Shown here: positions 6,516 to 27,685 of the stretch, one piece after another
How the letters are laid out: each line of letters starts with the position of its first letter
Numbering within the stretch: the first letter of the stretch is position 1
IMG/VR virus record: IMGVR_UViG_3300032722_000098
Coordinates: 1 to 27,685 of that record
Source of the DNA: a virus
DNA length: 27,685 bases
Reading direction: 5' to 3' (one strand)
Translations under genes and position numbers: made by a program
The notes under the pieces: model-generated
The model's input: the letters and a program-made list of their open reading frames with translations, nothing else
What the model was told of the DNA's origin: nothing
Database searches by the model: none

Positions 6516-7028
6516 TTACCCAGCCATGTTAAATGCCGTGTTTTCGACTTCCGAAACACGCCGCGACCAGCCTTTACCGAAATTAGCATAGGTTGACAGA
6601 CTTTGCAAAAAGGCTAATCGGGCTTCGCATACTTTTGTCGCAATCTCACGAGGGTTTGACGTTTCAAGAGCGCGAAGCGTGGCGGGTCCGATTTGTCCGT
6701 CTGGATTGGTATTGAGTACCGACTGAAGGGCTTTTGCGGCGCGGGACGGCCCCGAATTGATGGCAAAATCAAAGACGGCATAATCCACACCCGCAGGAAG
6801 ATCGTCTCCCTTTATCGTATCCCAATACTTGGCTTTGTACAGGGGCATGACGTCGTTGGGCGTTAGTGCCTTGATATCGTCCTTGGTTACCGAATGTCCA
6901 ATATACTGTTCCCAAACTGCTTTAGTGCATCCTAAGTTGGTCGCACCGCCGGGGTCCGCAGGGTTATCGACATATCCGCCCTCATTTTTAAGCACGAGGT
7001 AAAAGCATTGCTCGAAGTTGTTTTTCAT
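6516..7028 (-). CDS. Endolysin, GH108-type muramidase with PG-binding_3 domain
   Basis: A 170-aa lysozyme. KNEGGYVDNPADPGGATNLG carries the GH108 signature with the likely catalytic Glu16 (EGGY). The C-terminal half (about 75-165: GVDYAVFDFAINSGPSRAAKALQ, DGQIGPATLRAL) matches the peptidoglycan-binding domain that follows GH108. It cleaves the glycan backbone of the cell wall at the end of infection. No signal peptide or membrane anchor is visible, so export should depend on the holin. The ATG overlaps the o-spanin stop as ATGA; an upstream in-frame ATG at 7052 is less likely because it lies inside the spanin gene. It is the last gene of the lysis cassette. Confidence 0.92.
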   Translation of the reverse strand: MKNNFEQCFYLVLKNEGGYVDNPADPGGATNLGCTKAVWEQYIGHSVTKDDIKALTPNDVMPLYKAKYWDTIKGDDLPAGVDYAVFDFAINSGPSRAAKALQSVLNTNPDGQIGPATLRALETSNPREIATKVCEARLAFLQSLSTYANFGKGWSRRVSEVENTAFNMAG

Positions 7029-7219
7029 TTGGTCCCGCAGAACTTCTTCCACTTGTCGTCATGGGCAAGAATTTCGCTTGCCGTCGTGTCCGTTAGCTTG
7101 TCAGCCTTGTGGACATAAATAGGCTTTACCCAGTTGCAGGACATATCGAGAATCTTGGTTTCTGGCTTGGGCATGCATGCGGCAAGAGGCAACATGGCAA
7201 GCAACAATAAACGTTTCAT
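7025..7219 (-). CDS. Rz1-like o-spanin lipoprotein
   Basis: A 64-aa protein beginning MKRLLLLAMLPLAAC. The basic start, hydrophobic core and LAAC lipobox give a lipoprotein with its mature N-terminus at Cys15. The mature part (DMSCNWVKPIYVHKADKLTD, ILAHDDKWKKFC) is periplasmic and contains two more cysteines. It would sit in the outer membrane and meet the i-spanin across the periplasm to disrupt the outer membrane in the last lysis step. The chosen start overlaps the i-spanin stop as ATGA and has GGAG about 7 bases upstream; an in-frame ATG four codons earlier (7231) is possible but would lengthen the overlap. The lipobox implies a Gram-negative host. Confidence 0.88.
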   Translation of the reverse strand: MKRLLLLAMLPLAACMPKPETKILDMSCNWVKPIYVHKADKLTDTTASEILAHDDKWKKFCGTK

Positions 7220-10632: not shown

Positions 10633-10956
10633 TTAGCCCCAAGGGTTAGGAAGGACAACTGGGGTATAATAGTTGTTTGCGATCTGCGCCGCTACATCTT
10701 CTTCCGTGGCCGTTACTTGGGCAGCGCCAAGGGTTTCCTGTACCCAGCTAATGACCTGTGCTTGGGTCAATTGCGAATAGGGGGTATATGGCGCAGCCGG
10801 GTCGAGCTTAACGCCCGTGGAGCCGACGATTGCGCCAGTGTAGGTGCCATCCGTACCATTGCAGGCCCAATTAACCGTGCAGACAACGTCCGTGTAACCT
10901 TCGGCTTGTGGGTAAGAAGCCATGCTGTTGACGACCCATGTGTAAGTGTTTGCCAT
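10633..10956 (-). CDS. Small tail-region protein, DUF7936-like
   Basis: A 107-aa protein: ANTYTWVVNSMASYPQAEGYTDVVCTVNWACNGTDGTYTG, then VKLDPAAPYTPYSQLTQAQVISWVQETLG, ending in VVLPNPWG. The Y.W.V......P..EG.TDVV..V.W...GTDG.Y.G pattern followed by FTPY..LT..QV..WV is common to small phage tail proteins that I believe are classed as DUF7936; I have not checked this. It is probably a small beta-sandwich with a C-terminal helix. The ATG overlaps the stop of the HNH nuclease gene as TAATG; before the nuclease arrived it may have followed the fibre gene directly. Confidence 0.75.
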   Translation of the reverse strand: MANTYTWVVNSMASYPQAEGYTDVVCTVNWACNGTDGTYTGAIVGSTGVKLDPAAPYTPYSQLTQAQVISWVQETLGAAQVTATEEDVAAQIANNYYTPVVLPNPWG

Positions 10957-11471
10957 TATCGAGCCCTGCTGGAGTTGAGGTAATTTATAGCATTCATAAG
11001 AACGCTGGTGTCATCTTTTAGCATACCTATACCACGGTTGCATGCATCACATAATAGTCCGCGAACCTTCCCTGTGGTATGGCAATGGTCTATTGAAAGA
11101 CGTTTTTTCCGAGTATCAAATTGCGGCTTTGTTTTACAAATAGCGCAAACGCCGCCTTGATTTTCAAGCATTTCATTATATTTTTCGGGGGTTATGCCGT
11201 ATTTTACGCGCATAAATCCCTCGTTATAATACTTTTTAGTTTTGCTTAATCCATGTTTCCAATTAGGATGATCTTTGCCTTTTCTTTTTTGGAGGCAGCC
11301 ACAAGATTTTGACCTTCCACAAGTTAAGTTACCAATTCTGGTTTCAGAAGTTTTACCGCAGTCACAAACACATTCCCATATATGCTGACCCGCTGGCGTA
11401 AATTTTCCCGTCCGTTTTATAGCGGTTAACATTCCAAATCTTTGCCCTGATAAATCAATTGCTGCTGGCAT
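10956..11471 (-). CDS. HNH / endonuclease VII-like homing-type endonuclease
   Basis: A 171-aa nuclease. The N-terminal region (LSGQRFGMLTAIKR, then WECVCDCGK, CGRSKSCGC; C34, C36, C38, C51, C57, C59) matches the Cys-rich segment often fused to phage HNH enzymes. The C-terminal domain (about 82-168) has CAIC (109-112), IDHCH (127-131) and CDACNRGIG (141-149): the two Cys pairs that bind zinc plus the DH.H core and Asn145 of the endonuclease VII type. It cuts DNA and probably spreads as a free-standing homing nuclease. The gene is low in GC: the line 11221-11280 has 18 G or C in 60. It lies between fibre genes, joined by TAATG at both ends, with matching RAR* C-termini on both sides. Confidence 0.9.
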   Translation of the reverse strand: MPAAIDLSGQRFGMLTAIKRTGKFTPAGQHIWECVCDCGKTSETRIGNLTCGRSKSCGCLQKRKGKDHPNWKHGLSKTKKYYNEGFMRVKYGITPEKYNEMLENQGGVCAICKTKPQFDTRKKRLSIDHCHTTGKVRGLLCDACNRGIGMLKDDTSVLMNAINYLNSSRAR

Positions 11472-13870
11472 TATCTGGCCCTTGCGCTCTGAAAAGGCGA
11501 CTCTGCAAACGCCGCATATATGTATGTTCCACCAGAAGCATTAACAACCGTAGCAGAACGGCATTTAAAGCCATTAGAAAGACCATCAATAGACGTAGCC
11601 GATGTTTCTGCACCAGATGTATCTGCAAGCAATGTAGCCGCTTCTACGTTGTATGTGTCTCTTGACGTATCCCAAATATACCAATCACTTGTACTATCTG
11701 TGCGTTTAATTAATACATAACGAGGACGAAATCCTGTGTACACAAACGGTCCATCCGTACTGCCATTACCCGTGTACGATCCAAATGCACTGTAGCCAGC
11801 TACTGCGGCCCAGCAGTAAGCGACAAAAGTTGAACCAGAATTGTTTACGCCACCATCAACACCAACTGAAAACACACTTGATGTCGGTGATGTGCTATTC
11901 CAATAAGTGCTACTGGTATATGTAGAAGCTGTTGTATCTAATAATAAAGCACCCGTATTACCAAGACTAATGTGATAAACTGTCCAATGGCTTCCCGCTA
12001 AACTGCGGCTTTTTGTAATAACCATAGATGGCGCAACACCAAGTCCATGTCCAACGGTCGCATTTGCACCCGTACCCGTATAAGTCACCACAGAGAACCC
12101 TGCGGTCGTGTTAGCCGACACGGTGGACGTGATGCTGCCATTGGTGTTGGAGACGCCTGTGCCGCCACCTTTCCACTGCCAGCCGACGTAGGTGGCGGTG
12201 CTGGTGTTTAATTTGGCTTCAGCGCCAATCGTAAACCCAGTTGAGCCAAATGCAGTTAGACCTGTAGCTTGCGTTGTTTCCGCAGCAGTGCTGTCAGATA
12301 TAAGTTCTAAAGTTGTGCCTCTGACAACATCAAATAGCGCATGATCTGTAGCAGCAGACCGCGATTTCATCCACACAAGATCCGGCTGAAATGTCGTGCC
12401 GATAGTCGTGTTGGTGCCGTTATTGATAGTTAAAGACGCGCCTGTACCCGTATAGGTCGTAGCCGCCATATACTGCGCCCCGTTTGCAATGACTGGGCTA
12501 GGTAAATTATAGGTGTTCAGTGCATTGAAGCCCGTTGGCGGGGTGTAGGTGAATGGCTGTTGGCCGAAGTTTAAAGACACACTTACGCCGCCATAACCGG
12601 AAACAGATGGTAAATAATTTCCCGATGGAATTACTGTGAATGCCGTCCCTTGCGAAGTATTGTTTTTATAAAAAGTAAGCGTTCCAGTGCCAGCATCAAA
12701 TGCTACGCCAATAACATCGCCCGTTGTGTAAGTTGCACCATACGCAGTAAATGTTGCGTTATTTATTTTATTCCCCGTGGCGGAATAATAACCATAACTA
12801 TTAGAAAATACTCCAACAAAACAGTTTGTTGTGCCAGTAATATTAGCTGAAGTTGAAACAATACCAATCACAGCATTATTGCCAATGGAATTTATGGTTG
12901 CTTCAAAATAATATTTACCAGAAGACATTGCAATTGTCCCGGCAATCATATTGTTACTTGGAGATGCAGAACTTGAAAAAGTTAAATTTCCATTTGATGT
13001 TGAAACTCCAGAATATACCGGATTATTTGAATCAATAGGCGACATCACAGCATAATTTGCCACCGACGCAGACGTAACCGTAGGGCTATCCGTCATGCTG
13101 TCGTAGGTCGTACCCGCCGTCAGGGAGATGTTGTTCGTCGTCCAGTTATTGCCATTGCCAGACGTGTCATAGCCAAGCGTGGTCGTGGATGTCGTATTGC
13201 CGAATGTCAGGTGAAAACCATTGGTGCCATAAGTGCCGCTGAAGTTGATTGGCTGCCATACGCCATTGGTGTCATAGGTGCCGAATGATGATGCAGGAAG
13301 GGCTTGGCCGTCGATGAAGTTTACTTCGGCAAGGTAGCCGTCGTAATACCTAGATTTTGTCCCAGCGGCGGCAAAAGCTCCAAGGTAATGAGCAGTATTA
13401 TTGTCTACCTGCGTGGCATAATTTTGAGCTGGGTATGTTGCCGTACTAAATGCGGTAACTTGAGAACCATTTACATATAGTTTTAAACGGTTTGCTGCCG
13501 TTGCCTGAGTGGTATCCACAGCAAGTACAACGTGATACCACGCGCTAGGATCGCGAAAAACCTGCGTCGTCGTCAAATTAATGTTTACGGTGCCTGAAAG
13601 CTGATCGATAATCTTAATGCAATCAGCATTGGTATCGTCAAACCTAAGCTCAAAACCAGTGGTTGCGCCGCCGTCCGCGACAAATAAATCCTGAACTGTC
13701 GCGCCTAAAATACCGCGCTTGACCCAACCACTCCAAGTCCAAGTTTTTTGATTGGTTGTGGTTGCTGGCGTCCTATTCAAATACGCACTTGCAGACGAGC
13801 GAAAGCGCAATGAGTTCGCTACCTTGAACCCGCCGCCGCCTAGCCCTGCCAAGATGGAAACCGTCGTCAT
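11471..13870 (-). CDS. Tail fibre with LamG-like, SPRY-like and three tandem C-terminal domains
   Basis: A 799-aa fibre. Residues about 20-205 form a laminin G / concanavalin A-like domain (WTWSGWVKR, FELRFDDTNADCIKI, WYHVVLAVDTTQ, RLKLYVNG). Residues about 310-445 resemble a SPRY domain (GKYYFEATINSIGNNAVIGI, GDVIGVAFDAGTGTLTFYKN, YLPSVSGYGG). Three repeats of about 100 residues follow (from about 471, 585 and 697), each starting Y.TYTGTG or SYTGNG with PDLVWMKSR, PSMVITKSR or PRYVLIKRT; these resemble a domain I believe is DUF7483. The fold set is that of carbohydrate- or surface-binding fibres. The SPRY-coding part is clearly lower in GC than its flanks. The ATG at 13870 (TAATG) is preferred over one 16 codons upstream that lies inside the preceding gene. 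Confidence 0.82.
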   Translation of the reverse strand: MTTVSILAGLGGGGFKVANSLRFRSSASAYLNRTPATTTNQKTWTWSGWVKRGILGATVQDLFVADGGATTGFELRFDDTNADCIKIIDQLSGTVNINLTTTQVFRDPSAWYHVVLAVDTTQATAANRLKLYVNGSQVTAFSTATYPAQNYATQVDNNTAHYLGAFAAAGTKSRYYDGYLAEVNFIDGQALPASSFGTYDTNGVWQPINFSGTYGTNGFHLTFGNTTSTTTLGYDTSGNGNNWTTNNISLTAGTTYDSMTDSPTVTSASVANYAVMSPIDSNNPVYSGVSTSNGNLTFSSSASPSNNMIAGTIAMSSGKYYFEATINSIGNNAVIGIVSTSANITGTTNCFVGVFSNSYGYYSATGNKINNATFTAYGATYTTGDVIGVAFDAGTGTLTFYKNNTSQGTAFTVIPSGNYLPSVSGYGGVSVSLNFGQQPFTYTPPTGFNALNTYNLPSPVIANGAQYMAATTYTGTGASLTINNGTNTTIGTTFQPDLVWMKSRSAATDHALFDVVRGTTLELISDSTAAETTQATGLTAFGSTGFTIGAEAKLNTSTATYVGWQWKGGGTGVSNTNGSITSTVSANTTAGFSVVTYTGTGANATVGHGLGVAPSMVITKSRSLAGSHWTVYHISLGNTGALLLDTTASTYTSSTYWNSTSPTSSVFSVGVDGGVNNSGSTFVAYCWAAVAGYSAFGSYTGNGSTDGPFVYTGFRPRYVLIKRTDSTSDWYIWDTSRDTYNVEAATLLADTSGAETSATSIDGLSNGFKCRSATVVNASGGTYIYAAFAESPFQSARAR

Positions 13871-16215
13871 TACGTCAGACCTTGCCCAGTGATAACGAAC
13901 GTGTTCGAGCCAGTGCATAGTACCGTAGCAACACCGTTGGCCGCAAGCGATCTGTTGCCGGTCGTTGTGGAGCCAGCCAAGGTCATGGTGACAGACGCGC
14001 CCTGCGTGATGGTCTGCACCGATGAAGATTGGTTGTAGATCACGATATTCTGGCCAGCCGTGAAGATTGAGGCGGGAACCGTGACGCCGCCGGTCGTGAT
14101 GCTGATGTATTTGCCGTTGTCGGTCGCCACAAGCGTGTAGGCCGTCGTTTGGCTATTCTGGATAATGGTGCGGACGTTACCGATGGAATCGGAAATTGTG
14201 CTCGATGCCGTGATTGTACCCGCCGCGCCGACCGATGTTGTGCCTACACCCAGAGCGCCAGCCATGTAGTTGTTGGCCGTGCCACCCATATATAGGTTCC
14301 AGCGGTTCGTTGCCGCCGCGAGGTTACCGTAGAAGCCATAGGCATTGGTGACAGTAGCAGCACCAGCCGTACCAAGAGTGCTTTCCGCCCAAAAACCAGT
14401 TTGGTTGGTAATAATTGAACCAGCGCCGCCCGACCCCGGAGAAGCATAAAAATGATTAACGGTACCTGTTGTGAATGATGCAGCAACGCTTGAGATATTA
14501 GAAACGTAAGAATAAGCGTTTGCAGTCACACCTGACTGGATGACACCGCTATTTAAGTGAGCATATGCCGTTGTAGCGCCAGTAATCAGGGCGTTAGTAA
14601 GCAGATTGACACCAGTTGACGTGCCAGATGAGCCAATCGACCAGTTGCCAGACGTGTCAATATTGCCGCGCTGTACTTGACTGCCAGTCCTGAAAATAAT
14701 GCTATCAGTCGTGCCAACGCCAGAGGTTGACTGTATCGTAATGCTGGATGATGCAGCCGCACCACCAATATACAATGGCGTTGTTAATGACGTTGTAATT
14801 GTAGGCGAGGCAGACCAAGCAGGAGCAACGCCAACGCCGCCAGAAACCAACACAGAACCAGTAGCCACGTCAGCCAAACGCGACAGCGCCGTTATGGTCG
14901 AAGCGTAAAGAAGGTCGCCTACTGCATAGGTTGATTGGCCCGTTCCGCCGTTGGCCGCGATAAGCGTTCCGGCTACCGTGACAGCACCCGTGGTTGCCGT
15001 GCTAGGTGTTAAGCCTGTTGATCCAAATGTAATTGACGTTACAGCGGCACTTGATGGCAAGCTGCCCCAGCTTGGCGCAGCGCCAGTGGTAGCTACAAGA
15101 ATTTGGCCGGTGGTGCCTACTGCTGTAATACCCATAGCAGTCGTAGATGCACCGTAAACGACGCCATATTGCGTAAGTGCTGTAGATTGCCCTGTACCGC
15201 CAGACGTAACAGCCAATGCTGTACCAAGGGAGAACACGCCAGCCGAAGATATCGTCGCCGCATCAGTCGCGCCGCTGTTAACCACAAAGTGGATCGCGTT
15301 AGATGTCGTCGTGCCAATGGCAAGGTCAGCAGACGTGGCATCGAGGTATACGGTATTGGCAGCGTTAAACGCGCCCGTACCGGAGAACCCCGAAGAGTTC
15401 ATACCAAACTCGCCGAAGTAGGTGTTTGCCGTGCCGAGATTATTTGAGACGATGATATTCGTCGAAGCAGAGGCACCAGCGTTGGTATTTTGAACGATGA
15501 TTTGGTTGTAAGAGTTAACGGATGTTGTAAACGAGCCAAGGATGTTGCTGTCAGAATAGCCCAACGTGCCGTAAGTATAAGCACCTTGGCTTAATGATCC
15601 AGTAATTGCGCCATTGGCGATAAAGAAGCCAGATGTTGTTGTGCCGCTGATGGTTGGCGACGACGAGTAAGATGGAGCCACGCCAACGCCACCAGAAATC
15701 AACACCGATCCCGTAGCTACATCAGCAAGTTTGGAGAGAGCCGTGGAGGTTGACGCATAGAGCAGATCGCCGATGGTATAGGCGCTGAGGCCCGTACCGC
15801 CGCTTACAGCATTCAAGGTTCCCGCAACCGTAATGACACCGGCCTGAGCCGTCGAAGGCGTAAGGCCCGTGGTGCCAAACGAGATAGAATCAACACCCGC
15901 CGTGACGGGGATCGTTGGTTGCCACGATGGTGCAGAGCCAGCGGAGCCGACGAGGACATAGTTTGTACCGGCTGGAGGCGCAATTGAGCCAATCGCTGCC
16001 GTACCATTGCCGTACAGCAAGCCCCACTGGGTCAGGGTCGTGTCGCCGGTGCCGCCAATCGAGACGGGGAACGGCAACGTGCTGGAGCCCTTTGACAGGC
16101 CAGCGATCTGCCCCGTGGTAATCTGCACCGAAGTGCCCGATTGAACGCCCAGAAGCGGCTCTGTGCCGTTAAGGCCAGTTACCGTGGGTAGATTGGTTAA
16201 GGTAATATTCGCCAT
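13870..16215 (-). CDS. Tail fibre with GGTG repeats
   Basis: A 781-aa fibre. It begins MANITLTNLPTVTGLNGTEPLLGVQSGT, a standard fibre or appendage opening. GGTG motifs recur (SIGGTGDTTLTQ, SGGTGLSAYTIGDLLYAST, SGGTGQSTALTQ, NGGTGQSTYAVGDLLYAST), a hallmark of triple-beta fibre shafts. A unit of roughly 155 residues occurs twice. The C-terminus (YTLVATDNGKYISITTGGVTVPASIF, GQNIVIYNQSSSVQTI, LAANGVATVLCTGSNTFVITGQG) is a beta domain seen at fibre ends. The ATG at 16215, one base past the upstream stop, is chosen over one 16 codons earlier. It is followed by the LamG/SPRY fibre through a TAATG overlap, so the two may form one appendage. Confidence 0.82.
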   Translation of the reverse strand: MANITLTNLPTVTGLNGTEPLLGVQSGTSVQITTGQIAGLSKGSSTLPFPVSIGGTGDTTLTQWGLLYGNGTAAIGSIAPPAGTNYVLVGSAGSAPSWQPTIPVTAGVDSISFGTTGLTPSTAQAGVITVAGTLNAVSGGTGLSAYTIGDLLYASTSTALSKLADVATGSVLISGGVGVAPSYSSSPTISGTTTSGFFIANGAITGSLSQGAYTYGTLGYSDSNILGSFTTSVNSYNQIIVQNTNAGASASTNIIVSNNLGTANTYFGEFGMNSSGFSGTGAFNAANTVYLDATSADLAIGTTTSNAIHFVVNSGATDAATISSAGVFSLGTALAVTSGGTGQSTALTQYGVVYGASTTAMGITAVGTTGQILVATTGAAPSWGSLPSSAAVTSITFGSTGLTPSTATTGAVTVAGTLIAANGGTGQSTYAVGDLLYASTITALSRLADVATGSVLVSGGVGVAPAWSASPTITTSLTTPLYIGGAAASSSITIQSTSGVGTTDSIIFRTGSQVQRGNIDTSGNWSIGSSGTSTGVNLLTNALITGATTAYAHLNSGVIQSGVTANAYSYVSNISSVAASFTTGTVNHFYASPGSGGAGSIITNQTGFWAESTLGTAGAATVTNAYGFYGNLAAATNRWNLYMGGTANNYMAGALGVGTTSVGAAGTITASSTISDSIGNVRTIIQNSQTTAYTLVATDNGKYISITTGGVTVPASIFTAGQNIVIYNQSSSVQTITQGASVTMTLAGSTTTGNRSLAANGVATVLCTGSNTFVITGQGLT
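14796..15042 (-). repeat. Fibre repeat, distal copy
   Basis: Encodes SITFGSTGLTPSTA... through ...GGVGVAPAWSASPTI. It is about three quarters identical by eye over 80 residues to the copy at 15642-15892, with GDLLYAST, LADVATGSVL and SGGVGVAP invariant. Confidence 0.85.
15642..15892 (-). repeat. Fibre repeat, proximal copy
   Basis: Encodes SISFGTTGLTPSTA... through ...GGVGVAPSYSSSPTI. It pairs with 14796-15042. A related GGTG..TLTQ.G..YG.....APSW segment lies upstream of each copy, so the full duplicated unit is about 155 residues. Confidence 0.85.
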
Positions 16216-20957: not shown

Positions 20958-21872
20958 TTACGAAGTTGGGAACGAACCGTAGATCGAACGCCAGTTATAG
21001 TAGCCAAACGAGTAACGCTCATAACCCTTTACAAGTAGATTATCAGTAACAAAATCCACTTGCATGTCAGTTTCGAACTTTACGCGCTCCATATAGGCTA
21101 AACCGTCAATGTTGGTAAGTAAGAACCAAGCATATGGCGAGGTCAAGAAGTCGTTGACCAAGTAACCTTCTGGAAGACCACCGGCAGTTGTCATGAGCGC
21201 GTTGACATCGTTGTCAGCAGTACCCGGACGCAATTCGGTCTTCAGAAGACGGATTGCAACTGGCTCCAACTGAGGAGGGATAATCAACTTGCGACCACGA
21301 GCAAACACCTTCAGACCGGCCTGATCCTTGAAGTTCGTGCGGATTGCGATCATCGCATTCAGCAAGGTGGCTTCGTTAAGATCAACCTGCGTGGTTGGGG
21401 TGTTGGCAACCGTACCGCCGTCGATAGGATGCGCCGTGGAGCAGAGTGCCACACCGTCGCCGCCGACCGCTGCATTGTAGGTCGTTGCCGTATTCAAGAG
21501 GTTCGCGCCGTAGATTTCCTTGGTCTGTTGGAAAGATTCAATCAGGCCGAGGTTCGAAGGGGTGAACTGGGTCTTGTAGAGGTTGTCGTCGATTGCCTTA
21601 CGGGTAATCGCGTAGCCAAGAGCAATTTCAGTGTGCTCTTGGTTGTACACAAAACGCTCACCTGAACCCGAATCGAAAGCCGTCTGGCCACCTTCGCTTT
21701 TAAGCTGAGCGAGGCCGAGGTAGCGCATTTCTGCGGTACGTTCGAGAGCCATCTTCGAATCGTGCTTAGTGAAAATCTTGTCGTACTGAGATGGGATCAT
21801 CTCGTACTTGCCTTCAACGCCACGGAGACCGGGGAGCAAAAGGTCTTTAATCTGTGAGAGATTAACAGCCAT
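20958..21872 (-). CDS. Major capsid protein, Mu gpT-like HK97 fold
   Basis: A 304-aa protein: NLSQIKDLLLPGLRGV at the N-terminus, then YDKIFTKHDSKMALER, GYAITRKAIDDNLY, ALCSTAHPIDGG, GRKLIIPPQLEPVAIRLLKTE, ending VKGYERYSFGYYNWRSIYGS. The order of a helical start, ...A.E.GYAI...A..DNLY, CSTAHP and a PP.L...A..LL...L matches the Mu gpT-related capsid proteins. It builds the icosahedral head. Length is typical, and there is no long N-terminal scaffolding segment, consistent with the separate scaffold-like gene at 23196-24047. The start has a strong AAGGAG. It heads a cluster with decoration-like genes bounded by terminators at 22639 and 19310, giving a high-expression unit. Confidence 0.85.
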   Translation of the reverse strand: MAVNLSQIKDLLLPGLRGVEGKYEMIPSQYDKIFTKHDSKMALERTAEMRYLGLAQLKSEGGQTAFDSGSGERFVYNQEHTEIALGYAITRKAIDDNLYKTQFTPSNLGLIESFQQTKEIYGANLLNTATTYNAAVGGDGVALCSTAHPIDGGTVANTPTTQVDLNEATLLNAMIAIRTNFKDQAGLKVFARGRKLIIPPQLEPVAIRLLKTELRPGTADNDVNALMTTAGGLPEGYLVNDFLTSPYAWFLLTNIDGLAYMERVKFETDMQVDFVTDNLLVKGYERYSFGYYNWRSIYGSFPTS

Positions 21873-21885
21873 GATAAATTACTCC

Positions 21886-22509
21886 TTACGAGATACCGGT
21901 TGGGCCAGCGCCATTCGTGCGCCAAACTTCGTTATTGAAGCCGACGATCAAATTGCAATACTGGGTGGTTGGATCGCCGCCGTTGCCGAACGAGGTGGCA
22001 TAATCAACGACGATGAATGGATAGGTAACCGTGGTGCCAACAGCCGAGATGTAAGCGCCAGAACGACCGGTCGAGGTGTTACCCGTGCCGATGGTGAACT
22101 GGGCATACTGGCTTTGGACGCCAGAAGTCTGGGCGGTAGCCGTACCCGTGATCGGGAAACCTGAACCGGAAGACTGGACAACGAAACGAGCGTTTGGATC
22201 ATCGATCACATATGCTTCGACGTCGTAAGAGCAATCCGAACCCGGCCAATAAGACGACCAAACGGTGCGCTTCTGGGAGGTCGAGAGATACTTACAACCA
22301 ACAAAGATACCGGCGAGAACCGTGGTTCCGGCTGCGGCCTGCGTGATGTAACCGTTAGCTGTGCTAACGACGGGCATTACCGGATCGCCAGTGAAAACTG
22401 CCGTGGTATTACCTGAAGCGATTTTGCGGGGGGATTGTGCGAACGTCGGTGCGCCGCCTGCTCCGCCCTGATACTGCAAGAAACCGTAGGGCGCAAAGGT
22501 ATTGGCCAT
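21886..22509 (-). CDS. Head-associated structural protein
   Basis: A 207-aa protein: ANTFAPYGFLQYQGGAGGAPTFAQSPRKIASGNTTAVFTGDPVM, then GTTVLAGIFVGCKYLSTSQKRTVWSSYWPG, YVIDDPNARFVVQ, ending CNLIVGFNNEVWRTN. The opening PFGF........G.P.....Y.I..G....I..GDPV is a pattern I know from phage genes just upstream of the major capsid gene, usually called structural or capsid-associated. The fold should be a beta barrel, as in decoration proteins. AAAGGAG precedes the ATG at good spacing. It is the first gene after the 155-bp intergenic region holding a terminator and a possible promoter. Confidence 0.75.
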   Translation of the reverse strand: MANTFAPYGFLQYQGGAGGAPTFAQSPRKIASGNTTAVFTGDPVMPVVSTANGYITQAAAGTTVLAGIFVGCKYLSTSQKRTVWSSYWPGSDCSYDVEAYVIDDPNARFVVQSSGSGFPITGTATAQTSGVQSQYAQFTIGTGNTSTGRSGAYISAVGTTVTYPFIVVDYATSFGNGGDPTTQYCNLIVGFNNEVWRTNGAGPTGIS

Positions 22510-22664: not shown

Positions 22665-23180
22665 TTATTGCTCTGGAACGTATAGATTGTGGTCCTTGGT
22701 GATCTTCGGGGCCACCTGCGCGTCCTCGCGGCTGATCAAGCCACCCTTGCCCTTCGGGTCAAGCTGGCCTTCCTTCATGCGGACCTGAGCCCGTGCATTG
22801 CGAAGGTCACGAGCCTTGATGTCGTTCGTGATTTCTGCAGGGCGCTCACAGAGCACCATGCCGTCACGCTCGATAGCGCCGACAGCGCCACGGGCCATCA
22901 TGTCTGGGTGCCGCGAAGTGTCAACCGGCTCCCAGCCCGAACGGGCCATCTTCTGCAAATATGCAGCGTCAACATAGCCCATGACCGACTTGACCTTCCA
23001 CTCGTAGGACCAGCCATCCGGTGGGATCGGCGTGGCAAACTTATCGGAACCTTCGTCAACCGTGGCGTTGTTGTGGTCGCGAAGTTCCGCTACACGACGT
23101 GCCGCGCGTTCGGCGGAAGTCTCTTCATGCAGCGCTGCCGGGCGCAATGACAAACGGCCTTCGTCTTTAATCGTCTTCAT
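22665..23180 (-). CDS. Conserved head-region protein of unknown function
   Basis: A 171-aa protein. The N-terminal helix (AALHEETSAERAARRVAELRDHN) is charged. The centre (TPIPPDGWSYEWKVKSVMGYVDAAYLQKMARSGWEPVDTSRHPDMM, then GAIERDGMVLCERPAEITNDIKARDLRNARAQVRMKEGQL) matches a protein I know from many phages next to scaffold and capsid genes, with no known function. The start is chosen at the second ATG (23180), because AGGA is 8 bases before it but only 2 before the ATG at 23186. The gene ends at a strong hairpin terminator, so it closes the chaperonin/scaffold unit. Confidence 0.8.
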   Translation of the reverse strand: MKTIKDEGRLSLRPAALHEETSAERAARRVAELRDHNNATVDEGSDKFATPIPPDGWSYEWKVKSVMGYVDAAYLQKMARSGWEPVDTSRHPDMMARGAVGAIERDGMVLCERPAEITNDIKARDLRNARAQVRMKEGQLDPKGKGGLISREDAQVAPKITKDHNLYVPEQ

Positions 23181-23195
23181 ATCCATATTCCTTTC

Positions 23196-24047
23196 TTAAC
23201 CAGCCATCCGGCCGGATTTTACGAGTGCGACTTTGTTTTGGGCGTATTCTTTCGGCGTCATACCCATGTCACGGGCAGCTTCCTGCTCGGCACGGGACAG
23301 AGTGACGACGTTTGGACGACCCCCGGTGCCCGTTCCAGAACGGGACACAGGTGCGGCAGGCGGTGCAGATGCCCGACGGCCCGAGGTTGATTCCGAGGCT
23401 TCTGACATGGCTGCTTCCTGACGCATGGGCGCTTTATTGATGTTGAGGCGATTTTCGAGGAAGTTGAAGTAGTCTGGACTATCCGGCTGGATGCCATCAT
23501 CGAGCGCGTCGAAGTGCGCCCTCTCAAGGCGCTTGGCACGGCGCTCGTCATTGACCACATCTGGGTTGTTGCGAACCCATTCAGCCGACTTTGGCGTCAA
23601 TTGTGCTGCCAAGGCCTCTACTTTGTTGGCTACGGGGGCTTTAATCTGCGCCTCGTAGTGCTTTTTTCCTTCAGTAATCTGCCGAAGGTTGTTTTCCGTC
23701 TGGTTGATGGCCATCAGGATGTCAGCTTGGGCGTCAGTGTCGCCGTTTGCCACCGCTTCGCGAAGATTTGCCTTTAAAATCTCCTTATTGCGGCCTTCCG
23801 TCTCGATTGCGGTATTCAACATCCGCAAATCGCTGTCTGCCTTGTCGTTTGTAGCTACACGAGCCTGCTGTTCGGCGCGTTGACGGGCAGCTTTCTCGGC
23901 TTCAAGCTCACGGCGAAGGGCTTCAATGCCATCATCGACCGTAATTTCTGGTTTTGTCTCGATTCTTGGCTCTTCTGGAGCCTCCACGATGACAATGTCG
24001 TCCTCTGGGGCTGTTTCCAGCTCCAATTCTACCTGATTGTCTTCCAT
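23196..24047 (-). CDS. Scaffold-like coiled-coil protein
   Basis: A 283-aa protein. Residues 1-40 are very acidic; about 41-135 form a long charged coiled coil (IEALRRELEAEKAARQRAEQQARVA); about 140-205 are helical (KVEALAAQLTPKSAEWVRNNPDV, FNFLENRLN); a Ser/Pro/Gly linker precedes a C-terminal helix (LSRAEQEAARDMGMTPKEYAQNKVAL). The acidic, helical build, the L...E...A..MGMTP.EYA ending and the position just before the capsid genes fit a head scaffolding protein, which would guide capsid assembly and leave before maturation. No protease domain is visible. AAGGAG is well placed before the ATG. Confidence 0.72.
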   Translation of the reverse strand: MEDNQVELELETAPEDDIVIVEAPEEPRIETKPEITVDDGIEALRRELEAEKAARQRAEQQARVATNDKADSDLRMLNTAIETEGRNKEILKANLREAVANGDTDAQADILMAINQTENNLRQITEGKKHYEAQIKAPVANKVEALAAQLTPKSAEWVRNNPDVVNDERRAKRLERAHFDALDDGIQPDSPDYFNFLENRLNINKAPMRQEAAMSEASESTSGRRASAPPAAPVSRSGTGTGGRPNVVTLSRAEQEAARDMGMTPKEYAQNKVALVKSGRMAG

Positions 24048-24057
24048 TTTTATCTCC

Positions 24058-24450
24058 TTACCACACTGAATCTGGGTGCTTTACGCGTCCACGGATCACA
24101 ACATCGTCCATGAGACGGCAAGGCTGGCCATTAATGGCAACAGACCAACCATCAGATGGGCGAAACACAACCCAATCGCCTACATTGACGTCCGCATCCT
24201 TAAACCAACGACCGGTTTCGTCCTCAAAAGCAGACGGACCCTTCTTCACAACAAGGCCAACCTTGCCCTGATACTTGTCTTGCTCGGTCGTTTCGTCCGC
24301 CAAAATGATGCCGGACTTGGTTTTGTTGGGACGAATGTAGATTGCGACGAGGATGTTATTGTTAAACACTTCGACTTCGTTGAGATCGCCGAGGCTGGCC
24401 AACAAATCTTCCTTAAAATTGTCAGCATGTGTCATCTTCATAGGAGGCAT
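24058..24450 (-). CDS. GroES-like co-chaperonin
   Basis: A 130-aa protein with a Cpn10 domain at about 32-125: NNILVAIYIRP, NKTKSGIILADETTEQDKYQ, GKVGLVVKKGP, VNVGDWVVFRP, RLMDDVVIRGRV. The second block corresponds to the mobile loop; IIL (48-50) stands where GroES has the GroEL-binding IVL. About 30 extra residues precede the domain, and an insertion (SAFEDETGRWFKDAD, 73-87) enlarges the dome side. Phage versions such as T4 gp31 replace GroES so that host GroEL can fold the capsid protein; its place just before scaffold and capsid genes fits. The start overlaps the upstream stop as TAATG with GGAG about 10 bases upstream. Confidence 0.9.
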   Translation of the reverse strand: MPPMKMTHADNFKEDLLASLGDLNEVEVFNNNILVAIYIRPNKTKSGIILADETTEQDKYQGKVGLVVKKGPSAFEDETGRWFKDADVNVGDWVVFRPSDGWSVAINGQPCRLMDDVVIRGRVKHPDSVW

Positions 24451-24647
24451 TAAAATTTCTCCGCATTGGTTTGAGCGATGTCGAACATTTCCTGAACTGC
24501 GCGGAAGGCCTGAACCATGCCCACGTACTTCTGATATGTTGCATAATCGGCCACGTACCCCGTGGAGATGTAGCTAACGATCTTCTTCTCTTCTTCGTCG
24601 ATTAACTTTCGCAATTCGTTTGCGAATTTCGCTGCTGTAGTTTGCAT
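24450..24647 (-). CDS. Small helical protein upstream of the co-chaperonin
   Basis: A 65-aa protein: MQTTAAKFANELRKLIDEEE, then KKIVSYISTGYVADYATYQKYVGMVQAFRAVQEMFDIAQT. It is predominantly helical. The pattern of ...G...DYA.Y....G...A......M...A.... is common in small phage proteins that sit near portal and head genes; no function is known to me. The start at 24647 has AGAGGG at good spacing; an in-frame ATG at 24722 would add 25 residues but lies within a strong RNA hairpin and lacks a ribosome-binding site. Its stop overlaps the co-chaperonin start (TAATG), so the two are coupled. Confidence 0.72.
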   Translation of the reverse strand: MQTTAAKFANELRKLIDEEEKKIVSYISTGYVADYATYQKYVGMVQAFRAVQEMFDIAQTNAEKF

Positions 24648-24676
24648 ATTGCCCTCTTTAACCCCTTGTAATGATA

Positions 24677-24713
24677 GACCGGACGCCCCAAGGGGCTGGA
24701 AAGGCGTCCGGTC
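24677..24713 (-). other. Long intergenic hairpin
   Basis: An 11-bp perfect stem, GACCGGACGCC against GGCGTCCGGTC, with a 15-base loop. An alternative inner hairpin is GCCCC-AA-GGGGC. On the minus strand it is followed by TATCATTAC, without a T-run, so it is at best a weak terminator. It could be an mRNA processing or stability element, 30 bases before the ATG at 24647. Confidence 0.6.
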
Positions 24714-24724
24714 CTCTCTCATCC

Positions 24725-24753: not shown

Positions 24754-26400
24754 TTATTTGCCGCGTGGCTTTAGGCCATAGGCTTCGATTTTTTCGAGCC
24801 GTGCATTGCCGCCGCCTGCGCCGCTATCAATTGGGTAGCCAGTGCGGCCACCGGACTTGCGAGGCATTGGGTAACCCATAGGCTGCTGCATAGGCTGGCC
24901 CATCATTGGTTGCTGCATTGGCTGCATGCCACCGGCATTGCCCAACGAACCACCGACCATCTTGCCGGTACGACCACCGGTAGCACGGGGCATCTGCGGA
25001 GGCATCTGCGGAGGCATCTGAGGAGCGCCGCCTGCCATCTGCGGAGGTGGCACAGGAACGCCCATAGGAGGCTTTGGTGGCATCACAGGAGCATTAGGCA
25101 TGTTAGCCTGATCTTGACCGCCGCGAGGTGCCATCACGATGTTGATCGTGGTGGTGCCCTTGGTACGGCCACCCTTGGCATGCTGAGCGCGGCCACCCTT
25201 TGCATAGATCATGTTAGGATCGGTGTTGCCGTAATAATCGCCGATATCGCTCAAAGCGGCACCCAAAGCTTTTTCACGGCGATCTGGGGAGAACACACTT
25301 TGCGTTGGAGCAGCGCCTGTATTAGGTGTCCCACCGACACGAACAGGGGCATTCATTGCCGCACGTTGCGCGGGGTCCATCATGCCTTGGCTCATCATCC
25401 CCGTATCTGGAGTGCTGCGCATGATAGATGGCGAGGCTGCCGAACGGAGAGGAACGGCGGCTGGCATAACGCCACGGCTTGGACCCTGCGCTGCCAATGC
25501 AGCCTGACGATCCTGCGGTTTCATTGCAGCAATTTGATCAGGAGTTGCCTTATCAAGATCACTCCAACCCGTCAGAAAGTTATAGTTTGCCATTGGCATT
25601 ACGGTATCGCTGACATCGCGGCCACCACCGGCACGAGCCTTGCGACCGCCGACAGCTCCGGGGTTCTTCTGTTTGGAGTTGCCAGAGAAGATGCCACCGC
25701 CGGAATACTTGCCGGTACGGGCCTCAGGCTTGACCATGCGCTTGATCAGCGCCTTGTCTTCGGCGACGTCTGGGTGCTTGATCTTGCCACCCTTCTTTTT
25801 GCCCTGCGTGGTAAGGTTTGTGTCGGGCATAAAGTTGTGCTTGTCTTCAGCGCCGTGATAGATCGGTGCGCCTGTTGCTGGTAGGCCACGACCCGGCATG
25901 CCACGAGGCTGCTCTGGGTTTTTGTTTAGATAATCAGCAATTGCATCACCGCCATCGGCCCTCTTGGTCCGGCCACCCTTCTTCATAGGACCGGCAGCCT
26001 TGCCCATGGCCTTGTTTTGATCGGAAACAGGATTGTTGCCAATCATGCCGCCGCCAAACTTATTGGTGCGACCGCCCTTCTTGAACGCGCCCTCATGCTT
26101 GATGCCTTCACGGACATCATTAGCCATGCGCACGTCGCGGTTGATCAGGTTGTCGGGGGTCAGCGCACGGCCACCGGCCTTGCGGGGCTTGCGGTCGGCG
26201 CGTTTCATGGCGTCTGCGCCGATGACTTTGCCACCCTTCTTGTACAGGCGCTTTGTAAGCGGACGTGCGCCGGTCTTCACACCTGCATTTTCAGGAGCCG
26301 ATGGCGTCCACGTCGAGCTATCGACCTTTTGCTGTGGGTCGTTCTTGGTAAGGCGCTGGGCCTTCGACCGGCCACGGTCGTCTTTCTTGTATTCTTCCAT
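24754..26400 (-). CDS. Low-complexity basic protein with about nine KxGG motifs
   Basis: A 548-aa protein with no recognisable fold. [KA]xGG[KR] motifs recur throughout: YKKGGKV, PRKAGGRA, FKKGGRT, MKKGGRT, KKKGGKI, YAKGGRA, HAKGGRT, RATGGRT and PRKSGGRT. The first five lie in the Lys/Arg-rich N-terminal 215 residues, the rest in the C-terminal third, which also has Met/Pro/Gln repeats (MPPQMPPQMP, QPMQQPMMGQPMQQPMGYPMP). The start at 26400 (MEEYKKDDRGRSK) has GGAG about 9 bases upstream; a TTG at 26415 is a less likely alternative. Proteins of this kind occur in other phages beside head genes. I infer a disordered, possibly DNA-contacting virion or assembly protein; no function is demonstrated. 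Confidence 0.78.
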   Translation of the reverse strand: MEEYKKDDRGRSKAQRLTKNDPQQKVDSSTWTPSAPENAGVKTGARPLTKRLYKKGGKVIGADAMKRADRKPRKAGGRALTPDNLINRDVRMANDVREGIKHEGAFKKGGRTNKFGGGMIGNNPVSDQNKAMGKAAGPMKKGGRTKRADGGDAIADYLNKNPEQPRGMPGRGLPATGAPIYHGAEDKHNFMPDTNLTTQGKKKGGKIKHPDVAEDKALIKRMVKPEARTGKYSGGGIFSGNSKQKNPGAVGGRKARAGGGRDVSDTVMPMANYNFLTGWSDLDKATPDQIAAMKPQDRQAALAAQGPSRGVMPAAVPLRSAASPSIMRSTPDTGMMSQGMMDPAQRAAMNAPVRVGGTPNTGAAPTQSVFSPDRREKALGAALSDIGDYYGNTDPNMIYAKGGRAQHAKGGRTKGTTTINIVMAPRGGQDQANMPNAPVMPPKPPMGVPVPPPQMAGGAPQMPPQMPPQMPRATGGRTGKMVGGSLGNAGGMQPMQQPMMGQPMQQPMGYPMPRKSGGRTGYPIDSGAGGGNARLEKIEAYGLKPRGK

Positions 26401-26420
26401 AGTAACGTACTCCAAAGTTG

Positions 26421-27685
26421 TTAGCGGCGTCCCGCTTTGCTGCCAGTGGGTTGATAGTTTGACGCAGGCAACTTTGCGCCAAATTTCGAGATCACATGAT
26501 CTGTCATCTGAGAGCCGACTGTGCGTCGGTAAACCTTGCCACCTTTCTTGAATGGCTGTTCAACCCATTGAAATGTACCATCTGGCATCTGCTTCTGTAC
26601 CATATGTGTCTTACCGCTATTGCTGGTCTGAACGTTAGACCGCATAGTTTGGATGTCCCCAATAGATTTGTTGTATGCATCCGTGGGGCTTAGGCCTTGA
26701 TCCGTATAATTTTTATACGCTTTGTCGAACTGTTGTTGGGTGTTTATCCCAAACATGCCAGCCAGCCCCTCAAGAACGCTTGGCCCTTGCAGATCGCGAA
26801 CCGGAACAGGCGGCAATGGCACGTTGGCAGGCGGTGCTGCTGCTATCGGGGTAGTAGTTGGGGTAGGCGCAGGGGGGTTAACCGCTACCGGGGTAGCAGT
26901 TGCGGTCGCAGGCGTCGGCGTATACGGGGCGGCAGGCTGCACCATTGGCACAGCTCCAGTTGCGGGTGTTCCGCCAAGATGTGTTGCGTCATCCGCAGTG
27001 GGCGTTGGCGTGTGCGGGAATGCTGGCTGGGTGATATCTTTTGGCTGTGCGGCAGCCAAAATCGATTCAAGGGGCGTTCCTGTTGCGGATGTAATAGGAT
27101 TATTGTTGTCTGCCGTCGAAGGCGTTGGCGTATGCGGTGCCATTGGTTGCGTCGAAGAATCACCGCCGTAAAACGCGCCAGCTTGTGGCGGTTGCTGTCC
27201 AAAAGTTGTTGTCGCGCCAGTAGGACCAAACGCATTGATCAGAGCCGCCGTAGCGGCGCTTGCAGCACTTGGAGGCGCTTCGGCAGCAGTTGCCGCACTT
27301 GGCGGAGCGCCTGCGGCCTCGGCAGCATCGGATGCCGCGTTTAACTTTGCGCCTGCAGCCATAGCGGCTGATGCGTTGGTGTTTTCCTGATTTCGAACGG
27401 CGGCTTCGTTTGCCGCCAAGTTGTGACCGGCCCAGCTTGGGACGTCACCTTCATTGGCAAGCTTTTCAGCCTCGCTCAAATCGCGGCTAAACTCGGGTGT
27501 CTTTTCTTCTGGCGCTTCCTGTTCGGCGGGGCCGGTAGCCTCACTCATGCCACGGGCTTCTGCCGCGCCGCGTGGATCACCGGTTGCTTCTCCGCCATCA
27601 TCAAACGCGTCGCGCTCGTGCCAGATTGAGCCCTCGACCTTGCCGCCCTTCATATATGCGCGACGAACAACGCCGCCACGAGCAT
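26421..27685 (-). CDS. Ala/Pro/Thr-rich low-complexity protein (5' end outside window)
   Basis: At least 420 residues; the frame stays open to the window edge (ARGGVVRRAYMKGGKVEGSIW), so the Met at 27653 may be internal. It has KGGKV near the visible start and FKKGGKVYRR near the C-terminus. The middle is Ala-rich (AAEAAGAPPSAATAAEAPPSA) and then has PHTPTP, PHTPTP and PYTPTP units separated by linkers. The C-terminal 120 residues look more ordered (GLAGMFGINTQQQFDKAYKNYTDQGLSPTDAYNKSIGDIQTM, then QKQMPDGTFQWVEQPF). It is the first of two tandem low-complexity genes, 20 bases before the next start. Function unknown; the shared motif suggests that it works with the other KxGG proteins. Confidence 0.75.
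   Translation of the reverse strand, partial: ARGGVVRRAYMKGGKVEGSIWHERDAFDDGGEATGDPRGAAEARGMSEATGPAEQEAPEEKTPEFSRDLSEAEKLANEGDVPSWAGHNLAANEAAVRNQENTNASAAMAAGAKLNAASDAAEAAGAPPSAATAAEAPPSAASAATAALINAFGPTGATTTFGQQPPQAGAFYGGDSSTQPMAPHTPTPSTADNNNPITSATGTPLESILAAAQPKDITQPAFPHTPTPTADDATHLGGTPATGAVPMVQPAAPYTPTPATATATPVAVNPPAPTPTTTPIAAAPPANVPLPPVPVRDLQGPSVLEGLAGMFGINTQQQFDKAYKNYTDQGLSPTDAYNKSIGDIQTMRSNVQTSNSGKTHMVQKQMPDGTFQWVEQPFKKGGKVYRRTVGSQMTDHVISKFGAKLPASNYQPTGSKAGRR

Follow-up and report, generated by a model that had tools for sequence, protein, structure and literature searches.

Does a phage that encodes a GroES-type co-chaperonin among its head genes possess a lid specially enlarged for its own capsid protein, or is such a gene an ordinary possession of the phages to which it belongs? 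The question is raised by an open frame of 130 codons (24058-24450, minus strand) in the window, by which is meant the whole 27,685-base stretch of a virus record analysed here, on the minus strand of which head and tail genes follow one another. The initial annotation took the product of this frame for a GroES-like co-chaperonin with an enlarged domain, similar in function to gp31 of phage T4 and pointing to a need of the capsid protein or its partners for a modified folding chamber. The analysis below shows that a GroES gene near the capsid gene is an ordinary trait of a capsid lineage, and not a specially enlarged lid.

Identification of the co-chaperonin gene

The 130-aa product (14.6 kDa) matches the Pfam Cpn10 family (PF00166) with E = 1.9e-8 and 34.7 bits, above the cut-off of 21.1, and PHROG 3188, 'co-chaperonin GroES', with E = 6.7e-14; together with an AlphaFold2 model that has the GroES fold and the fold comparisons described below, these matches uphold its identification as a phage GroES-like co-chaperonin. 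Sequence matches to Cpn10 chains of the PDB were weak (best 0.0037), and the protein scored under the cut-off of every one of the seven NCBIfam GroES models that it matched, the highest score being 28.6 bits where 136 are required; its homology is thus distant. Relatives of 65-100% identity over the full length are present at 23 IMG/VR loci, and codon comparisons of the window gene with eight of these yielded whole-gene dN/dS ratios of 0.018-0.149, which are rough in the four comparisons where dS exceeded 1; for residues 1-29, pN was lower than pS in all eight. The gene is thus under purifying selection. A chance frame was considered and is ruled out by these ratios along with the Cpn10 and PHROG 3188 matches.

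The gene encodes a real GroES-family co-chaperonin and is a member of an already-known sort: GroES is annotated in CRP-901, CRP-902 and many other phages, is marked on the genome map of one report (PMC10149686), and is named in another among the 13 core genes of 82 HTVC023P-type genomes (PMC9599517). With tblastn, E. coli GroES matched 89 of 50,697 phage records, a lower bound because distant phage GroES escape tblastn.

Organization of the head module

The placement of groES in the capsid module, as initially annotated, is borne out by its position, with three genes between it and the gene of the major capsid protein (MCP). Homologues of the neighbouring genes were collected by iterated profile searches of 336 sequences (window included), and 15 named phages were checked. 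Just upstream of groES is a small gene (24450-24722, minus strand; 90 aa; homologues in 132 of the 336 sequences and 7 of the 15 named phages), the stop codon of which has one base in common with the groES start codon. Downstream of groES follow a 283-aa putative scaffolding protein (23196-24047, minus strand; homologues in 278 sequences and 12 named phages), so called solely from its position, as it has no match over the Pfam cut-off and none in PHROG; a conserved head-module gene of 173 aa (22665-23186, minus strand; 276 sequences, 11 named phages); another of 207 aa (21886-22509, minus strand; 321 sequences, 13 named phages); and the MCP itself (20958-21872, minus strand), a Mu gpT-related protein of 304 aa and 33.7 kDa, identified by matches to PHROG 371 (major head protein, 8.1e-12) and Pfam Mu-like_gpT (4.1e-4, just above the cut-off) and by homologues annotated as MCP.

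Exactly three ORFs of at least 130 aa lie between groES and the MCP gene in 235 of 247 loci. The order in named phages is groES, the scaffold-like gene, two genes of ~140-210 aa and an MCP of ~304 aa, usually with the small gene preceding groES, and it occurs in MW202675, HTVC023P, Caulobacter RW, DSL-LC04, HTVC027P, 023Pt_psg01 and Pag-Yong1, and also in MW202796, CRP-901, QDWS535 (where the small gene is unannotated), MW202785, MW202545 and CRP-902. The record of MinM2 breaks within the block, and its MCP is at the opposite end of the record. The window has the HTVC023P-type order (GroES, scaffold-like protein, two smaller genes, a related ~304-aa MCP), and shares with HTVC023P, HTVC027P and other phages of this type the GroES family and the possession of an N-terminal arm, but relative to HTVC023P and HTVC027P, the MCPs of which are 42% and 40% identical to that of the window, it differs in the sequence and length of the arm and in host group, and its GroES is 29% and 27% identical to theirs. 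The nearest named record is that of the Manatee Spring phage MW202675.1, with a GroES 54.6% identical over the full length, an MCP 89% identical and a similar arm; it differs from the window by sequence divergence and by a few tiny ORFs within the block.

Upstream of the block, two long frames (24754-27653, minus strand) contain many K-G-G motifs; the first of these has no Pfam match, and its homologues are found in 126 of the 336 sequences and only one of the 15 named phages. Elsewhere in the window, all on the minus strand, are an endolysin with Glycosyl hydrolase 108 and peptidoglycan-binding domains (6516-7052), a protein encoded between tail genes (10956-11471) that has a recombination endonuclease VII domain and at a guess is possibly a homing endonuclease, and a large tail-region protein with SPRY and DUF7483 domains (11471-13918).

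Predicted structure of the co-chaperonin

The structure was predicted by AlphaFold2 from an alignment (A3) of 128 rows, consisting of the window protein and 127 of 129 representatives, the two omitted being L219 and L001, the latter identical to the window. The model has a mean pLDDT of 82.2 and a pTM of 0.78. Foldseek placed Cpn10/GroES chains on top, with 24 matches at E<=0.001, and VIA-align likewise gave Cpn10 chains first, reaching a Z of 9.5 across residues 23-125; the best rows (Z 9.5) come from the chaperonin complexes of human mitochondria and H. thermoluteolus, the rows of T4 gp31 have Z of 8.0 and 6.9, and the first unrelated fold has 5.8. Structural alignments to Cpn10 chains start at model residues 21-26 (17 and 22 in the gp31 rows) and end at residues 122-125, and the core is therefore of about 100 residues, as in bacterial GroES. 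Beyond it is a short C-terminal tail of about residues 126-130 (24061-24075, minus strand), which was absent from the initial annotation.

The mobile loop (residues 38-63; 24262-24339, minus strand) is predicted between strands 32-37 and 64-70 with the low confidence expected for a flexible loop (pLDDT 65 in block 41-50 and 68 in block 51-60), and is about 2 residues longer than that of E. coli GroES in a hand alignment in which the loop ends are uncertain. The IIL tripeptide reported earlier is indeed in this loop (residues 48-50; 24301-24309, minus strand), where it corresponds to the IVL of E. coli GroES and, by analogy with GroES, would bind GroEL. The sequence IIL itself occurs in 45 of the 128 rows, and the glycine ahead of it is kept in 126. 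The regular place of groES directly ahead of the putative scaffold gene, and the presence of arms at both ends of the protein, would suit a Cpn10 fold co-opted as a virion or assembly part, for example a ring-shaped plug or a scaffold partner, with its GroEL function lost; but all 128 rows have at least two hydrophobic residues in the tripeptide columns, a feature that a structural protein would not need, and such co-option is very improbable.

The acidic/aromatic segment FEDETGRWF (residues 75-83; 24202-24228, minus strand), previously regarded as extra, is at the position of the GroES roof loop. There are 20 positions from G71 to G91 of the window protein versus 18 in E. coli GroES (hand alignment), and the similar acidic/aromatic segment RWDEDGEKRI of M. 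tuberculosis Cpn10 aligns at FEDETGRWF with a one-residue gap. Because of this spacing and this alignment, the segment is an ordinary roof loop, not an insertion, of somewhat different composition and exceeding that of E. coli by about 2 residues. Column conservation in the 128 rows defines a lineage signature at the roof, G-P-x-A-[F/Y]-x-D, in which G71 is present in 128 rows (the sole invariant column of the alignment), P72 in 80, A74 in 116, F or Y75 in 118 and D77 in 82.

The N-terminal arm, of about residues 1-24 (24379-24450, minus strand), of which 12-20 are predicted to be helical, is a genuine addition to the GroES core, but the length of 30 residues once assigned to it is too great: with Cpn10 alignments starting as noted above and the alignment to E. 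coli GroES starting at residue 24, the arm is of about 23 residues. Its length varies among relatives. Ahead of the column of window residue N32 the 128 rows have from 6 to 72 residues (median 31), the window having 31 and E. coli GroES 8; 23 rows, a few of which may be cut by contig ends, have 15 or fewer, and single arm lengths are approximate, as the starts of metagenomic GroES were picked by script. Among annotated proteins, the GroES of HTVC027P has an arm of ~47 residues, and those of MW202785 (107 aa) and QDWS535 (113 aa) are armless in the same gene place. Within the window's own subgroup the arm is alike. Since its length differs widely and some relatives at the same locus have none, the arm appears from these comparisons to be a variable decoration, probably situated outside the chamber or between subunits and not serving to enlarge the chamber. 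The arm and such a roof loop are common across the phage lineage and not particular to the window phage. The description of the domain as enlarged is therefore withdrawn, the core being nearly standard in length, FEDETGRWF being the roof loop and the arm being missing in some relatives.

Co-occurrence of groES with one lineage of capsid proteins

The linkage of groES to the MCP was assessed at loci fetched by MCP and not by groES, in which groES was then sought by profile search. It is on the same strand and no more than 4.5 kb upstream of the MCP gene in 174 of 183 MCP-fetched viral loci with at least 4.5 kb of upstream sequence; the loci are related, so these are not 183 independent events. 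This count excludes L001-L032, the loci of the groES query, apart from L012 and L020, which came up with the MCP query too; once groES-fetched loci are included it becomes 196 of 205, with groES at distances of 2.1-4.0 kb. By clusters of MCP identity, linkage is seen in 100 of 108 clusters at 95%, 34 of 39 at 80%, and 15 of 19 at 60%, the other four having none. In bacterial and archaeal genome assemblies, groES is upstream of the MCP gene in 48 of 52 loci. Loci with less than 4.5 kb upstream were set aside: 125 of 330 viral loci (61 with GroES), 27 of 79 assembly loci (8 with GroES) and 20 of 79 control loci. The control was a sister Mu-like MCP family, to which the MCP of a Klebsiella phage belongs, and there the same profile found groES in none of 59 loci, themselves also interrelated, and gave no match in all 79; many of these control loci are presumably from genomes of cultured bacteria, judging from IMG/VR numbering.

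The nine viral exceptions all have distant MCPs: vir526, MW202601 and five relatives, a human faecal contig, and the Klebsiella Mu-like phage. Searches of whole records located Cpn10 elsewhere in vir526, in MW202601 and in the 47.9-kb contig behind locus L249, and did not find it in the 35-kb Klebsiella phage or in five records of 7.9-14.1 kb. The phages vir526 (L338) and MW202601 (L339) thus combine a distant version of the MCP with a Cpn10 gene located outside the capsid block; in vir526 this gene is upstream of the terminase gene. Among the four assembly exceptions, L362 has a groES-like frame ~12 kb upstream, beside a homologue of the scaffold-like gene, on contig C73, taken from its number to be the contig of L362; L387 is interrupted before the block by a run of N, and the only Cpn10 found in that assembly is host-type, with no phage-type GroES; at L422 and L423 the MCP match is weak and distant, and the vicinity is without GroES. 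Of the 13 viral and assembly exceptions, four thus have GroES elsewhere.

Eight MCP relatives with upstream groES (L357, L359, L360, L365, L366, L391, L413 and L419) are in isolate genomes of Rhizobium, Acidisoma, Bradyrhizobium, Salinisphaera, Leisingera and Hyphomonas; seven of them are on contigs of at least 168 kb, and the MCP lineage therefore seems to have prophage members. Shewanella phage 1/44 (L341) and Vibrio phage 1.049 (L342) have a GroES gene immediately preceding that of the major tail protein, and upstream a large protease-MCP. A link of these GroES genes to the MCP family of the window would be tentative: profile comparison gave a probability of 15.6% and an E of 0.0017, and matches to PHROG 371 and 4523 are common to the two phages and the window MCP.

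The co-occurrence of groES with one MCP lineage beyond the pelagiphages, and not in the sister family, is a new addition: no tie of GroES to this MCP lineage across hosts was found in the literature as represented by titles and the beginnings of abstracts, mainly of non-subscription papers.

Divergence of GroES and the major capsid protein

Distances between GroES sequences correlate with those between MCP sequences, with a Spearman coefficient of 0.69 where the highest of 999 permutations gave 0.05; the comparison used 200 of 230 loci after identical MCPs were dropped, with L116 and short MCP matches excluded beforehand. Such a correlation is as expected for co-inherited genes. GroES is the more variable of the two: for MCPs less than 10% apart, its mean difference is already 34%. 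Among MCP-fetched loci, 55 have the complete block and an MCP at least 88% identical to that of the window, and in these the median identities to the window are 92.4% for the MCP and 56.9% for GroES (n=54), a contrast partly set by selection, because the loci were picked by MCP similarity and several scans comprised the best 80 loci. The other genes of the block in the same set have medians of 41.7% (scaffold-like), 50.3% (173-aa gene, n=52) and 72.2% (207-aa gene, n=53); two of the three vary as fast as groES or faster, so its speed is not special. Within GroES, in the 43 of the 55 loci that have 130-aa proteins, identity is 86% in the strand before the roof, 66% in the mobile loop, 54% in the roof and 45% in the arm.

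A GroES of ~57% identity at an MCP identity of ~92% is unlike what a chamber tuned to one client would give. The lid looks instead as if it follows something other than capsid sequence, possibly host GroEL. The faster variation of GroES, which fits adaptation to differing host GroELs, and the fact that vir526, MW202601 and the L249 contig have the gene outside the capsid block would agree with a lid of general use, one that offsets a shortage or mismatch of host GroES and serves many phage proteins (portal, tail) and perhaps host proteins, its place on the capsid side giving only late, high expression. A general need, however, would not tie the gene to one capsid type, and the linkage to a single MCP lineage across very different hosts, with groES found at none of 59 loci of the sister Mu-like family, makes this alternative unlikely.

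Presumed chaperonin partner and client

GroEL (PF00118) is absent from all 25 records of relatives (40-79 kb, without completeness values), and Cpn10 is present in 24 of them, the 25th having GroES by the family profile and being itself a row of alignment A3. A phage-coded GroEL partner was thus sought and none appeared across these records; therefore the partner is presumably host GroEL, if the lid works at all.

The client is likely to be the MCP or another head protein, to judge from the gene block. Co-linearity could mirror shared ancestry of the block and so does not prove the MCP to be the client. As to a role like that of gp31, proposed at the outset, it is a probable one, the capsid link being backed by the co-occurrence with MCP in viral and assembly loci versus none in the control. 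In PMC6318259, T4 gp31 is described as without roof loops and with a longer mobile loop, and its bigger cage is invoked for the capsid protein gp23, of ~56 kDa. The window GroES resembles gp31 in being a phage-coded lid of GroES fold with a hydrophobic mobile-loop tripeptide and a probable role in capsid folding, but it is not built like gp31, as it keeps the roof loop that gp31 is missing; moreover, T4 gene 31 is not beside head genes, whereas groES of the window is in the capsid block. With E. coli GroES it has the core fold and mobile loop in common, but the bacterial protein has no arm and another roof sequence, and its gene adjoins groEL rather than capsid genes. The trait associated with gp31, service to a capsid protein that exceeds the capacity of the GroEL-GroES cage, is not found here: the putative client is the 33.7-kDa MCP, and compared with gp23 it is of a size to which T4's bigger-cage reason does not apply.

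These comparisons bear on the idea that the extra parts of a gp31-like lid enlarge or reshape the chamber for this particular capsid protein. The arm does exist and is shared by the window's subgroup, the roof has its lineage signature, and gp31 offers a precedent (PMC6318259). On the other side, the core is near standard length, the supposedly extra segment is a roof loop of the kind missing from gp31, at most 15 residues precede the residue 32 column in 23 of 128 rows, the MCP is small, and the roof averages only 54% identity in loci with MCPs at least 88% (median ~92%) identical. Chamber enlargement is accordingly improbable, and the proposal that the folding chamber is modified for the capsid protein of the window is not supported, given the nearly standard core, the armless relatives, the size of the MCP and the divergence of GroES.

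The reading preferred here, and considered probable, is of a phage co-chaperonin that docks on host GroEL to fold one or more head proteins, most likely the MCP. Seven copies would probably form a lid; the lid would dock onto host GroEL through the IIL-bearing mobile loops during infection; and GroEL would then fold one or more head proteins of the same gene block, of which the MCP is the foremost candidate. The window GroES would thus most likely work as gp31 does, with host GroEL on head proteins.

Implications

A phage GroES is ordinary in this lineage, where it has already been called core; what is striking is the regularity with which it travels with a 34-kDa MCP. T4's bigger-cage reason is inapplicable to such an MCP, yet a lid is encoded in nearly every locus tested, so that the lineage offers a clean system in which to ask why phages supply a GroEL lid themselves. 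It is possible, as a tentative suggestion, that the ~304-aa Mu gpT-related MCP lineage, which occurs in phages of SAR11, Roseobacter, Caulobacter, cyanobacteria, Alcaligenes and rhizobia, obligately needs a GroEL lid encoded by the phage, not because of client size but on some other ground, and that the lid evolves to match host GroEL much faster than the MCP changes. If so, the capsid protein would carry its own folding adaptor from host to host.
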